DNA from: Acidimicrobiia bacterium
GTDB lineage: Bacteria; Actinomycetota; Acidimicrobiia; IMCC26256; PALSA-610
Assembly (NCBI GenBank): GCA_036271555.1
Contig: DATBAK010000066.1
Coordinates: 1-64,000 of the forward strand
Reading direction: 5' to 3'
DNA: 64,000 nt
A program made the position numbers and the translations under genes. The notes beneath the pieces are model-generated. The model was not told the origin of the DNA. It saw only the letters and a program-made list of their open reading frames with translations, and searched no databases. This document shows positions 22,440 to 54,826 of this stretch, piece after piece (position 1 is the stretch's first letter; each line of letters starts with the position of its first letter).

Positions 22440-23618
22440 CTACGAAGGGTCGAACAGGACCGGCAACCGGTTCGGCCCCCGGAACGCCATGCCTTCGATG
22501 ACGGGCGCAGCCGCATCCGGGTCGAGCCGCAGGTTCGGCAGCCGGTCGAGGATCGTGTCGAGGCCGACGCGCAGCTCGAGCCGCGCGAGGTGCATGCCGA
22601 GGCACTGGTGCGGACCCGTGCCGAACGCGACGTGGTGCTGCACGGGCCGGCCGAGCTTCCACTCCTCCGGCTCGTCGAAGCGCGCCGCGTCGCGATTCGC
22701 CGACCCGGTGACGACCGAGACCGGCGACCCCGCGGCGACCGGGCAACCTCCGATCTCGGTGTCGCGCGCGGCGACGCGGCTGACCATCGTCACCGACGTC
22801 TCCCAGCGCAGCGTCTCCTCGATCACCTCGGGCATGAGCGAGCGATCGTTCATCACCTGCTCGTACGCGGCCGGGTGCGTGAGCAGCGCGACGAGGCAGT
22901 TGCCCATCACGCGGAACGTCGTCTCCGCGCCCGCGGGCAGCAGCAGTCGCAGGAAGCCGTAGATCTTGCTGTCGGAGAGTCGTTCGCCGTCGATCTCGGT
23001 GTTGACGAGATCGCTCAGGAAGTCGCCCGACGGCGTGGCGCGGCGCGCCTCGACGAGCGGCGTCAGGTAGTCGACCATCGCCTGCGACGCGGCGTGACCG
23101 GCCGGCGGGTTGAGCGGACCGGTGTTGATCTGCTCGGCCCAGAGCGCGAACTGCTCGGAGTCTTCGAGCGGCACACCGACGATCCCGCAGATCACCTGCA
23201 CCGGGTACTTCGCGGTGATGTCGGCGACGAGATCGCCGCGCCCGTTCGGCGCGATCTCGTCGAGCAGGCGCGCGATCGCCGGGCGCACGAGGGTGTCGTC
23301 CCACTTCTCGAGCTGCGACGCGCGGAACGCCTTGGCGACGAGGTTGCGATACTTACGGTGCTCGGGGCCGTCGAGGGCGAGGATCAGATCGCCCATGTAC
23401 TCGCCGATGTGCTCGCGGTTGATCGACGACGAGAACGTCTCGACGTCGCGCAGCACGTGCTCGACGTTCTGCCAGTCGAGCACCTGATAGGTCGGCAGGC
23501 TGCCGCCCATCGAGATACCGGGGCTCTCGGCGACCGGACATCCCGCCTCGAGGGCTGCGCGCCACGCGCCGTAGGGCTGGGCCGTCGTCCACTCGACCGG
23601 AAGCGTCGTGTCGCTCAT
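22440..23618 (-). CDS. cytochrome P450
   Basis: A 392-residue soluble bacterial P450. I-helix: LRLLLPAGAETTFRV (Ala-Gly-x-Glu-Thr-Thr oxygen-binding groove). ExxR: EETLRWE. Heme loop: AFGTGPHQCLGMHLARLE with the axial Cys. Electrons would come from a ferredoxin not encoded here. The substrate is unknown; steroid or fatty-acyl hydroxylation fits the neighbourhood. The ATG at 23618 has a GGAGCGGAG Shine-Dalgarno. The leader is unusual: its ribosome-binding region is present twice (see 23613-23742), and a palindromic operator shared with two other genes lies further upstream. Confidence 0.92.
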   Translation of the reverse strand: MSDTTLPVEWTTAQPYGAWRAALEAGCPVAESPGISMGGSLPTYQVLDWQNVEHVLRDVETFSSSINREHIGEYMGDLILALDGPEHRKYRNLVAKAFRASQLEKWDDTLVRPAIARLLDEIAPNGRGDLVADITAKYPVQVICGIVGVPLEDSEQFALWAEQINTGPLNPPAGHAASQAMVDYLTPLVEARRATPSGDFLSDLVNTEIDGERLSDSKIYGFLRLLLPAGAETTFRVMGNCLVALLTHPAAYEQVMNDRSLMPEVIEETLRWETSVTMVSRVAARDTEIGGCPVAAGSPVSVVTGSANRDAARFDEPEEWKLGRPVQHHVAFGTGPHQCLGMHLARLELRVGLDTILDRLPNLRLDPDAAAPVIEGMAFRGPNRLPVLFDPS

Positions 23619-23742
23619 GATCTCCGCTCCTTGCGCGCCGTCGGCGCGCCGGGCCGCTCGGGCCACGCTCGCTGCTCGCCGGGATACCCGCCTCGCGCAC
23701 GCTCGCTCATGATCTCCGCTCCTCGCGCGCCGTCGCAGATAC
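23613..23742 (-). repeat. duplicated start region of the P450 gene around a REP-like insert
   Basis: A ~32-bp string (CGACGGCGCGC, A or G, then AGGAGCGGAGATCATGAGCG) occurs at both ends, giving two ATGs 92 bp apart (23710 and 23618). Between them lies a REP-like sequence with GGGTATCCCGGCGAGCAGCG. The first ATG opens a 31-codon reading frame that stops before the real gene. Confidence 0.65.
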
Positions 23743-23760
23743 CTGACACGGTAGTCAGGT
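23741..23760. promoter_or_regulatory. palindromic operator CTGAC-N6-GTCAG of the P450 gene
   Basis: ACCTGAC-ACGGTA-GTCAGGT is a perfect 7+6+7 inverted repeat upstream of the P450. On the minus strand the spacer reads TACCGT and could be the -10 box. The same half-sites and spacing occur at 46784-46799 and 54969-54984. Confidence 0.65.
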
Positions 23761-23786: not shown

Positions 23787-25130
23787 TCAGCTCGCGATGC
23801 CGACGATCCCTCCCGGCGGGAGCGCGGTGCCGCTGAGGGAACCGGCGAACGCGGCGTCGCCGAAGTCGAAGACGCTGCCGTCGTTCGCGACCAGTCGGTA
23901 CCCGCGGCCACTCGCGGTCGCGCGCATGCCGACGATCGGCGCCGTGACGTGGAGCGCGCCCGTCGAGCCGAGGAAGTGCGCGTCACCGAACGAGAAGATC
24001 CCACCATCGGACGCGACCAACCAATAGCCGTTGCCCGACGGCGTCGACGTCATGCCGACGATCGGACGGCTCAAGCGGATCGCGCCCGTCGAACCGAAGA
24101 ACCGCGCGTCGCCGAACGAGAAGATTCCACCGTCCGCCGCGACCAACCAATAGCCGTGACCCGACGGCGTCGACGCCATCCCCACGATCGGCTGGTTGAG
24201 TCGAATCGCGCCGGTCGACCCGAAGAAGCGCGCGTCGCCATACGAGAAGATCCCACCGTCGGATGCGACCAACCAATAGCCGTTGCCGGACGGCGTCGGC
24301 GCCATGCCGACGATCGGTTGGTTCAAGCGGATCGCGCCCGTCGACCCGAAGAAGCGCGCGTCGCCGGACGTGAAGATGCCGCCGTCGGTCGCGACCGACC
24401 ACAGTCCTCGATGATCGGGCGTCGACGCGACTCCGACGATCGGACGCGCGACCGGACCGTCGGTCGCGCCACGGCACGTGCCGACGTCGCCGAAGCCGCT
24501 GACGTCGCCGTTCGCGGCCGCGAGCCAATACCCGGCGATCGACGCGCGCGCGGGCGTGAGGTAGCACGACGCGAACGTCGAGCCCGTGTCGGGGAACCGA
24601 TCGGTCGTGTTCGCGCCGGTCATGAGGTTGGCCACTTCAAGACCGCCCCAGACGCGGACCGTCGCCGCGTTGCCGACCTCCGACAGCGGCCAGCTCATGT
24701 CGAAGTCCGACGCGAACGCATGGCCGCCCGCCAGCACGTTGTAGTCGTTCGTCCACGTGCTCTGGTCACAGGTCGGCGTGCGCGACACCGCGTCCAGAAA
24801 CGCCGTCTCCTCGTCGCGCAGGAACACGCGGTAGTCGGCACCTTGGCAGCCGTCCGTCGGATCGCCGTCGGTGTCGAGCTGCGCGACGAGGAGCACCTGC
24901 GAGCTCGCGTACGGGATCGGCGCGGCCGTGAGCGCTTCGAGGGAGAGGAAATGGTTCGCGCAGTCGTAGCGCAGGACGAACGTGCGCACGTCGACCAAGC
25001 CGGCGTTCGGCGAGTCTCCGATGCTGTGCTGCGAGCAGATGTTCGGCGTCAGGTAGGCGGCGGCCGGCGCGGCCGACAAACCGCCGACCACGAGGCCGAG
25101 CGCGACGACGAGCCCCACGAGCTTCCCCAC
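23787..25130 (-). CDS. secreted protein with DTDxDPxxGC domain and six GYW repeats (paralogue)
   Basis: A 447-residue exported protein. The signal peptide (KLVGLVVALGLVVGGLSAAPAAAY) directly follows a GTG at 25130 with GGGGGAA in front; longer starts are possible but would bury the signal. The next ~190 residues have FVLRYDCANHFLSLEALTAA, AQLDTDGDPTDGC and TPTCDQSTWTND, matching the first domain of the 16929-18347 protein. Six 42-residue repeats follow, with the first and last degenerate (GLWSVATDGG; GYRLVANDGS). Probable surface or secreted protein of unknown ligand. Lies head to head with an acyl-CoA dehydrogenase gene. Confidence 0.72.
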   Translation of the reverse strand: MGKLVGLVVALGLVVGGLSAAPAAAYLTPNICSQHSIGDSPNAGLVDVRTFVLRYDCANHFLSLEALTAAPIPYASSQVLLVAQLDTDGDPTDGCQGADYRVFLRDEETAFLDAVSRTPTCDQSTWTNDYNVLAGGHAFASDFDMSWPLSEVGNAATVRVWGGLEVANLMTGANTTDRFPDTGSTFASCYLTPARASIAGYWLAAANGDVSGFGDVGTCRGATDGPVARPIVGVASTPDHRGLWSVATDGGIFTSGDARFFGSTGAIRLNQPIVGMAPTPSGNGYWLVASDGGIFSYGDARFFGSTGAIRLNQPIVGMASTPSGHGYWLVAADGGIFSFGDARFFGSTGAIRLSRPIVGMTSTPSGNGYWLVASDGGIFSFGDAHFLGSTGALHVTAPIVGMRATASGRGYRLVANDGSVFDFGDAAFAGSLSGTALPPGGIVGIAS

Positions 25131-25169
25131 AGTTCCCCCGATCCTCGAACCCCGTAGATTCAAGCGCAC

Positions 25170-25185
25170 GACGGGGTGCCCCGTC
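25170..25185. promoter_or_regulatory. palindrome in a divergent intergenic region
   Basis: GACGGGG-TG-CCCCGTC is a perfect 7+2+7 inverted repeat in the 77-bp gap between the GYW-repeat gene and the acyl-CoA dehydrogenase. It covers the expected -35 position of the TAACCT box at 25195-25200. Confidence 0.45.
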
Positions 25186-25207
25186 ACGCTTGGGTAACCT
25201 CCGCGCC

Positions 25208-26410
25208 GTGCCCGCACTCGGATCCGACCCGTTCGCCGAGACCGACGACCAGGCCGCGCTGCGCGCGCTCGCCCGCGACGTCGCCGAGCGCGAGCTGCTC
25301 CCGAACGCGCGTCACTGGGACGAGACCGAGGAGTTCCCGCAGGCGTCGTGGGACGCGCTGAAGAAGTACGACCTCTTCGGCATCACCATCGGCGAGGAGT
25401 ACGGCGGCATGGGCCTCGGCGACATCGAGGCTGCAATCGTCCTCGAGGAGCTCGGCCGGGTCGATGTGTCGAGCGCGATCCTCGCCCAGCTCACGTTCAA
25501 CGGGCCGCCGCGCGCGATCGAGCACTTGGGCAACGACGCGCTGAAGAACCGCTGGCTGCCGACGGCGGCCGCGGGCGACGGTCTGTTCTGCATCGGCATC
25601 TCGGAATCCGAAGCGGGCTCCGCGGTGAACCACATGCGCGCGCGGCTCACGCCCGACGGCGACGGCTTCCGTCTCAACGCGTACAAGAACTACGTGACCG
25701 GCGGGCACAAGGCGTGTTCGTGCCTGGTGTGGTGCCGCTTCCCCGGCAGCGAAGGCACGAAGGGCATCGGCGCGGTCGTCGTCGACCTCGCGGCCGACGG
25801 TGTCACCTGCGCGGGCACGCACGTGAAGATGGGATTGCGCGGCACGAGCGAGGCGGAGCTCGCGTTCGACGACGTGCGCATCGAACCCGACGACGTGCTG
25901 GTGTGGGGCGACGCGGAGTCGAGCGAGTCGTTCAAGACGCTCATCGCGCACATCAACCACGAGCGCTGCGGCAACGCCGCGATGTGCGTCGGCGCCGCGC
26001 AAGGAGCGCTCGAATACGCGATCGGCTACATGAACGAGCGCACCGTCGGGAAGCGCACGCTCGCCGACTTCCAGGGTCTGCAGTGGAAGATCGCCGACGT
26101 GACCGTCGAGCTCGAAGGCGCGCGGCTGCTGCTCAAGCGCGCGCTGCACCTCGCGGGACCGCACGGCACTCCCCCGCCGCTCGAGACCGCGATGGCGAAG
26201 ACCGCCGCGAACCTGGCGGCGAAGCACGTGTGCGACGAGGCGATCCAGCTGCTCGGCGGCTACGGCTTCTCGCGCGAGTACCCGGTCGAGCGCGCGTACC
26301 GCGACATCCGCGGCCTCTGCATCGGCGCCGGAACCGTCGAGATCCAGCGCAACTTCATCGGCAAGAACCTGCTCGACGGCATGAAGCCGTCCGGTGCCAG
26401 CTGGCGGTGA
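25208..26410 (+). CDS. acyl-CoA dehydrogenase
   Basis: A 400-residue FAD enzyme of beta-oxidation. N-terminal helical domain with PQASWDALKKYDLFGITIGE and YGGMGLGD; middle beta domain with CIGISESEAGSAVNHMRA (FAD and substrate contact), MGLRGTSEAELAFDDVRI; C-terminal domain with QLLGGYGFSREYPVERAYRD and GAGTVEIQRNFIGK. At the site where many family members have the catalytic Glu (YEGT), this protein reads GAGT, so the base is elsewhere or supplied by a partner. The GTG at 25208 follows TAACCT by 7 nt, with no Shine-Dalgarno. The substrate is unknown. Confidence 0.88.
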   Translation: MPALGSDPFAETDDQAALRALARDVAERELLPNARHWDETEEFPQASWDALKKYDLFGITIGEEYGGMGLGDIEAAIVLEELGRVDVSSAILAQLTFNGPPRAIEHLGNDALKNRWLPTAAAGDGLFCIGISESEAGSAVNHMRARLTPDGDGFRLNAYKNYVTGGHKACSCLVWCRFPGSEGTKGIGAVVVDLAADGVTCAGTHVKMGLRGTSEAELAFDDVRIEPDDVLVWGDAESSESFKTLIAHINHERCGNAAMCVGAAQGALEYAIGYMNERTVGKRTLADFQGLQWKIADVTVELEGARLLLKRALHLAGPHGTPPPLETAMAKTAANLAAKHVCDEAIQLLGGYGFSREYPVERAYRDIRGLCIGAGTVEIQRNFIGKNLLDGMKPSGASWR

Positions 26411-53572: not shown

Positions 53573-54826
53573 ATGGCCAGCGACGACGTTCTTGCTCCCG
53601 CCGAGGAGTACGACCCCTTCGAGGACTTCAACCGCAGCGCCGGCATCGGGGTCGTCGAGAACCCGTACCCGTTGTTCGCGATGGCGCGCGCTCACGGCTC
53701 GCTGCTGAAGGAAGATCTCGGCGACCTCTCCGAGCTGGCCGAGATGACCGAGCAGGGCATGACCGCCCTCGACATCCCCGACGTCTACACCGCGTTCGGG
53801 TTCGATGCCGTTCAGACGGTGCTGCGCGACGGCGACACGTTCTCGTCCGCCGGATACGCCGAGGTGATCGGCGCGGTCATGGGCCACACCATCCTCGAGA
53901 TGGACGAGCCCGAGCACCACACGTACCGCGCCCTCGTACAGCAGGCGTTCAGCCGCAAGGCGATGGATGTCTGGGAGTCCGACCTCGTGCGCGACGTCGT
54001 CGACGAGCACATCGACCACTTCATCGATCGCGGCCACGCCGACCTCGTGCGCGAGCTCACGTTCCCGTTCCCGGTCGTCGTCATCGCGCGTCTGCTCGGT
54101 CTGCCGCGCGAGGACCTGCCGCGTTTCCACCGGCTCGCCGTCGAGCTCATCAGCGTCGCGTTCGACATGGACCGCGGCCTCGCGGCGTCGGCCGAGCTCA
54201 ACGAGTACTTCTGCGGGATCATCGCCGAACGGCGCGCGCACCCGCAGAACGACGTCATCAGCGTGCTCGAGAAGGCCGAGCTCGACGGCCAGCGCCTCAC
54301 CGACGACGAGATCGTCGCCTTCCTGCGCCTGCTGCTCCCCGCCGGGGCGGAGACGACGTACCGCTCGTCGAGCAACCTCCTCTACGGACTGCTCACGAAT
54401 CCCGCACAGCTCGACGCGCTGCGCGCCGACCGCGCGCTCATGCCGCAGGCGATCGAAGAGGGGCTGCGGTGGGAGCCGCCGCTGCTCACGATCATGCGCA
54501 CCGCGACGCGCGACACGGTCGTCGACGGCTTCGACGTGAAGGCCGGCGCCACGATCGTCGTGAACATGGGCTCGGCGAACCACGACGAGAAGTACTGGGA
54601 GAACGCGGACCAGTTCGACATGTTCCGCGCCCCGCGCCAGCACCTCGCGTTCGCGTTCGGCCCGCACATGTGCCTGGGCCTGCACCTCGCGCGCATGGAG
54701 ACCCGGGTCGTGCTCTCCCGCCTCCTCGACCGCCTGCCGAACCTGCGACTCGACGCCGACGCGGAAGCGCCGTTCATCACCGGCATGACGTTCCGCGCGC
54801 CCAACCACCTCCCCGTCGTCTTCTGA
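53573..54826 (+). CDS. cytochrome P450
   Basis: A 417-residue soluble P450. I-helix LRLLLPAGAETTYRSSSNLL, ExxR in IEEGLRWE, and heme loop AFAFGPHMCLGLHLARMETR. It shares the LPAGAETT I-helix and the ending NLRLDADAEAPFITGMTFRA with the P450 at 22440-23618, so the two are likely from the same broad clade. ATG 53573 has a GGAAGAG Shine-Dalgarno and a TATAGT promoter. Substrate unknown; fatty or sterol acids are possible given the nearby amidohydrolase and dehydrogenases. Confidence 0.92.
   Translation: MASDDVLAPAEEYDPFEDFNRSAGIGVVENPYPLFAMARAHGSLLKEDLGDLSELAEMTEQGMTALDIPDVYTAFGFDAVQTVLRDGDTFSSAGYAEVIGAVMGHTILEMDEPEHHTYRALVQQAFSRKAMDVWESDLVRDVVDEHIDHFIDRGHADLVRELTFPFPVVVIARLLGLPREDLPRFHRLAVELISVAFDMDRGLAASAELNEYFCGIIAERRAHPQNDVISVLEKAELDGQRLTDDEIVAFLRLLLPAGAETTYRSSSNLLYGLLTNPAQLDALRADRALMPQAIEEGLRWEPPLLTIMRTATRDTVVDGFDVKAGATIVVNMGSANHDEKYWENADQFDMFRAPRQHLAFAFGPHMCLGLHLARMETRVVLSRLLDRLPNLRLDADAEAPFITGMTFRAPNHLPVVF

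Follow-up and report, generated by a model that had tools for sequence, protein, structure and literature searches.

A cytochrome P450 gene of an Acidimicrobiia bacterium starts behind a complete and a truncated copy of a repeat that probably couples a 31-codon frame to it

The start region of a cytochrome P450 gene in the window (the whole stretch of 64,000 nucleotides that was analyzed) is best explained, with a probability of roughly 0.7, by one complete and one 5′-truncated copy of a short interspersed gene-start cassette, whose 31-codon open reading frame (ORF) would be translationally coupled to the P450. Judged from the sequence comparisons below, the cassette and its truncated copy most likely replaced a leaderless start by one that is led by a Shine-Dalgarno (SD) sequence. 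The order in the window is palindrome, then ATC, truncated cassette, complete cassette and P450. The features, all on the minus strand, are as follows.

23742..23759, minus: palindrome CCTGAC-TACCGT-GTCAGG, putative operator/promoter of the P450 gene
23711..23740, minus: 5′-truncated first cassette copy (weak covariance-model match, E 0.04)
23703..23735, minus: 33-nt direct repeat, upstream copy
23619..23710, minus: complete 92-bp cassette, which starts with ATGAGCGAGCG and runs up to the base preceding the P450 ATG
23615..23710, minus: 31-codon bridging ORF (MSERARGGYPGEQRAWPERPGAPTARKERRS, then stop), opened by the ATG at 23710
23674..23694, minus: REP-like hairpin module GAGGCGGGTATCCCGGCGAGC between the two 33-nt copies
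23611..23672, minus: cassette core, comprising two hairpins, SD2 and the start codon (matched by covariance model R1 with 65.7 bits, E 3.2e-9)
23633..23649, minus: hairpin GCGCGCC-gac-GGCGCGC directly before SD2; the matching stem covaries across copies
23611..23643, minus: 33-nt direct repeat, downstream copy
23627..23632, minus: SD2 AAGGAG, 8 nt before the P450 ATG
22440..23618, minus: cytochrome P450, 392 aa, MSDTTLPVEW... (PF00067, 4e-32)

The two copies of the 33-nt repeat agree at 32/33 positions (97%), lie 92 nt apart in minus-strand sense and each end in an SD and ATGAGCGA. A near-identical 33-nt repeat within 500 bp is not a product of chance. TRF did not report the pair, because it holds only 1.36 units. 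The duplication provides two start signals, the ATG at 23710, which is preceded at a distance of 8 nt by SD1 (GGAG, 23719-23722) in the truncated copy, and the ATG at 23618. Up to this point the results bear out the first-pass annotation, which had placed a duplicated start region at 23613-23742 (correct within a few bases), with a REP-like sequence between the copies, a first start opening 31 codons and a second opening the P450. In addition, the TGA that ends the 31-codon ORF (23615-23617) overlaps the P450 ATG to give ATGA.

Most of the 33-nt repeat is found again elsewhere in the same genome. Searching that genome with the downstream half uncovered further copies, sited at gene junctions, which have in common GCGAGCGGGGCCCGAGCGGCCCGGCGCC-NNN-GGCGCCAGGAGCGGGAGNCGTGAGCGA. 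The covariance model R1, built from eight copies, detects 15-17 copies in the window's own genome. It has matches in 17 of the 41 genomes of the order (E down to 1e-11) and, under the stricter filters used there, one weak match in 395 other genomes of the phylum. By a strict criterion, the element is followed by the start codon of a long ORF in 46/150 copies, against 2.6% at random positions and 6/150 on the other strand; many model matches are without a DTGA start or any evident gene start. The encoded proteins downstream of cassettes include MeaB, a thioesterase, NuoH, methylmalonyl-CoA mutase, TsaD, CcmB, the P450, an Fe-S protein, a glycosyltransferase and enoyl-CoA hydratase. Tandem arrays of the cassette occur in two other genomes, G002 and G030, the latter with a 92-bp array of 6.2 copies (98% matches).

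The existence of this family bears on the origin that had been proposed for the duplication, namely that a REP element inserted at a start region peculiar to the P450 gene and generated a long target duplication. The position of the REP between two near-identical 33-nt copies would fit such an event, as would a second locus (contig C1 of this genome), at which a 53-bp form without REP is directly followed by an 86-bp form with REP; the two differ by 33 bp, and the frame is kept. However, the stretch with the SD and ATGAGCGA is the 3′ end of a second, widespread repeat family, and the REP is found at the same internal cassette position in 23 of the 150 copies, from seven genomes. An insertion that duplicated its target is, therefore, improbable in our estimation. 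The REP is an optional built-in module of the cassette, and its constant place indicates that it came in together with the rest of a composite; the joint between REP and core (GAGCA|GCGAGCG) is identical in most of the copies that bear it. The feature is thus real but was misread in its origin. A RAYT transposase, considered as the mover of the REP, was ruled out, since PF01797 is absent from this genome; it is present in only 4 of the 41 genomes. As do REPs, BIMEs and REPINs, the module forms an imperfect palindrome that is present in many copies and whose stem variants are compensatory (GGCGGGTATCCCGCC / GCCGGGTATCCCGGC), and it also stands alone and in arrays. It differs from them in the lack of a RAYT in this genome and in that the composite form puts the REP inside a predicted translated cassette. 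Standalone REPs were also seen in threes with a spacing of about 60 bp (G000 C57:4313-4470 and C20:54546-54706). At L007:1440-1570, a direct repeat of about 28 bp (CCGGCAGCGAGCGCGACCAGAGTTATGG) stands on either side of a REP, an arrangement that suggests tandem duplication of the REP plus flank. No paper on REP in Acidimicrobiia was found among the open-licence literature.

A state without the insert, which the first-pass annotation had suggested looking for in close relatives, was found at the P450 loci of same-family relatives with conserved synteny. In five same-family genomes, the ATG of the P450 orthologue comes directly after the palindrome ACCTGAC-TAC(C/G)GT-GTCAGGT. Where the contigs reach, the neighbors are alike as well (acyl-CoA dehydrogenase, MBL-fold protein and molybdopterin oxidoreductase). 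The hexamer TACCGT (23748-23753) fits the actinobacterial −10 sequence (TANNNT), which leads us to regard the palindrome at 23742-23759 as a likely operator/promoter of the P450 gene; a scan for the Sigma-70 consensus gave no match. In the relatives, this putative −10 of the TACCGT type lies seven bases before the P450 ATG. Because the ATG abuts the TANNNT-containing palindrome, the P450 transcripts of the relatives are probably leaderless. The empty sites show that the cassette was gained, with an insertion boundary that is only approximate because the nearest orthologues compared, none of them from the same genus, are just 71-73% identical. The relatives' loci also support the earlier suggestion that the repeat family altered the translation signals of the P450 gene. 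An arrangement shared by all relatives, together with an upstream frame conserved at the protein level, had been named as what would contradict the annotation, a test that is only half pertinent: the relatives lack the arrangement, and of the frame the phase is conserved and the peptide is not.

Three further observations concern these loci. There are 7 sites of the motif CCTGAC-N6-GTCAGG in this genome (control 0), and most relatives have 2-12; several of the sites adjoin other P450 genes (G000 C5:57746, G003 C1:1962725 and G007 C168:14387), and the motif is possibly the operator of a P450 regulon. Upstream of the P450 gene lies a 476-aa ORF with internal repeats (23787-25217, minus), which was not found beside the P450 in the loci of relatives. 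The window holds, moreover, a second P450-like frame (53783-54826, plus) that is 45% identical to the first and has one internal TGA; a pseudogene, a frame error or an assembly error is possible.

One regularity of the family lies in its phase. The upstream DTGA and the start DTGA of the copies in this genome are separated by 53, 86, 92, 98, 101, 104 and 107. Each of these distances is 2 mod 3, and an ORF that opens at the first DTGA therefore closes on the second. The cassette lies between consecutive genes, its small ORF overlapping the next start codon (ATGA/GTGA), and in ten of the twelve bridge-carrying cassettes here an upstream ORF of at least 200 codons ends on the first TGA of the cassette. 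The P450 copy is unusual in that no gene ends at its 5′ end, unlike most other copies. Taking the nearest upstream DTGA in any frame, 60/87 were in phase, as compared with 106/499 for DTGA sites elsewhere in the flanks. Such raw counts overstate independence, because copies within a genome are related; after removal of repeats with the same part lengths within a genome, 32/53 were in phase (p ~5e-5 against one third). When the stop of the upstream gene was chosen by ORF length and GC3 with the frame ignored, the distance from this stop to the downstream start was 2 mod 3 in 44 of 62 cases, and 56 of the 62 stops were TGA. The lack of internal stops in the bridging ORF was dropped as evidence, as a control frame of this GC-rich DNA is almost as open.

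Different copies use different frames of the core, and all three occur (WPERPG, GPSGPA and SGARAARR); the lengths of the 5′ and 3′ parts about a fixed core point compensate each other, with the combinations (1,1), (0,2) and (2,0) in 31, 13 and 7 of 71 copies. Since the phase is kept with the core in every frame, the peptide is not what is kept: the closure of the frame, that is, the phase from stop to start, is conserved, and the peptide is not. The strength of this conclusion is limited by the relatedness of the copies and by the roughly 30% of them that are out of phase. This result bears on the hypothesis that the small ORF is a P450-specific regulatory leader peptide acting by attenuation or stalling. 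A 31-codon ORF with an SD before a promoter-proximal gene with an operator-like palindrome would be a natural setting for such a leader. Nevertheless, the peptide shows no conservation, as copies that precede unrelated genes translate the core in other frames, and same-family P450 orthologues are without the ORF; we hold this hypothesis to be very improbable indeed.

One could also envision that the family is neutral, having spread by chance copying or recombination among GC-rich junctions, with ORFs that have no effect and a phase inherited from a few founders. The copies are indeed related, tandem arrays inflate the counts, and about 30% of the copies are out of phase. But the in-phase copies show at least 16 distinct lengths, besides the three core frames and the compensating part lengths, and common descent alone does not give such lengths and frames. 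We, therefore, regard a neutral repeat as unlikely.

A different explanation is that the hairpins form a structured, riboswitch-like regulatory RNA for the downstream genes, the ORF being incidental. The hairpin proximal to the SD covaries, with compensatory changes in all six pairs (alignment A2) or in five pairs (A3), counted in alignments that had been fitted to the structure beforehand. Against this stand the Rfam search of the locus, which gave no match above the gathering score, the downstream genes, which share no pathway, and the hairpins themselves, which are plain and have no conserved junction or loop. A regulatory RNA of this kind has, in our judgment, little to recommend it.

The preferred reading is that the cassette acts by translational coupling, for which we propose the following course of events. 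In an ancestral-type state, as in the relatives, the P450 start would have lain directly at the promoter and been of the leaderless type. The cassette would then have entered between this promoter and the start codon. For the partial second copy, the best reading is that the 92-bp unit was duplicated in tandem and subsequently truncated, or that it is a truncated neighboring copy; exact 92-bp arrays exist in two other genomes. Ribosomes would begin at SD1 and read through the 31 codons; on reaching the TGA within ATGA, they would terminate and, helped by SD2, start again on the P450. The predicted folding energy of the whole P450 leader was no better than that of shuffled sequence, and a stable structure of the entire leader forms no part of this proposal. 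Elsewhere in the order, where the cassette overlaps both the upstream stop and the downstream start, they would pass from gene to cassette to gene. The nuoD-nuoH junction is of this second type: the two genes overlap directly in most relatives, and two cassettes lie between them in this genome. At the same junction, G013 (L379) and G008 (L381) have a different and seemingly unrelated insert of about 82 nt, in which a possible GTG start lies at a distance of 86 (2 mod 3) from the overlap at the stop, and G023 has about 112 nt between nuoD and nuoH. These inserts are possibly further families of coupling cassettes.

Translational coupling with short ORFs has a natural case in the MIRUs (mycobacterial interspersed repetitive units), repeats whose insertion sites are start codons and whose ORF is coupled by a 4-nt overlap (PMC12548453); units of 77 and 53 bp are present in senX3-regX3 (PMC4213456). 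As do MIRUs, the cassette consists of a short repeat (about 50-110 bp) oriented with the gene, overlaps stop and start codons at both of its ends (DTGA), has a hairpin just before the SD, forms tandem arrays and carries a small ORF that is predicted to be coupled to the gene with a 4-nt overlap. Insertion at a DTGA of gene junctions, as for MIRUs, is seen at nuoD-nuoH and at the junction of the P450 promoter and start. In contrast, the cassette is unrelated in sequence, occurs in another class of actinobacteria, often with the REP module, and varies more in length and reading frame. The MIRU core motif is present in 11/396 genomes of the phylum and not once in this genome, and R1, in a search of reduced sensitivity among the 396, had no copy in the MIRU-bearing genomes. 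The spans of two MIRU copies from one genus, 77 and 62 bp, are likewise 2 mod 3. By analogy, then, the cassette appears to work like a MIRU in its architecture, and no sequence relationship to that family was found. A short ORF also brings ribosomes to an overlapping start in 4-nt-overlap coupling (ATGA/GTGA) and in synthetic bicistronic designs (PMC12548453), but here the short ORF resides in a dispersed repeat family rather than being unique to one operon.

The chances seem to us somewhat better than even that these are undescribed translational-coupling cassettes of an Acidimicrobiia order, independent in sequence of MIRUs, in which only the phase of the bridge is selected, and that the P450 passed from a leaderless to an SD-led, coupled start. 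A search of the open-licence literature found no published description of the family; the one paper there on something MIRU-like deals with a cyanobacterium and, judging by its abstract, with a different subject. MIRUs are the one natural example cited in the review PMC12548453 of a mobile repeat that survives in junctions by means of a coupled mini-ORF. If our interpretation is true, then the strategy would be a recurrent one, having a second and unrelated family in another class of actinobacteria. Because one RNA core is used in three frames, selection for ribosome passage can be told apart from selection for a peptide, and the coupling idea becomes testable by sequence statistics alone. Finally, a repeat can, as the P450 case suggests, alter the way in which translation of a gene is initiated.
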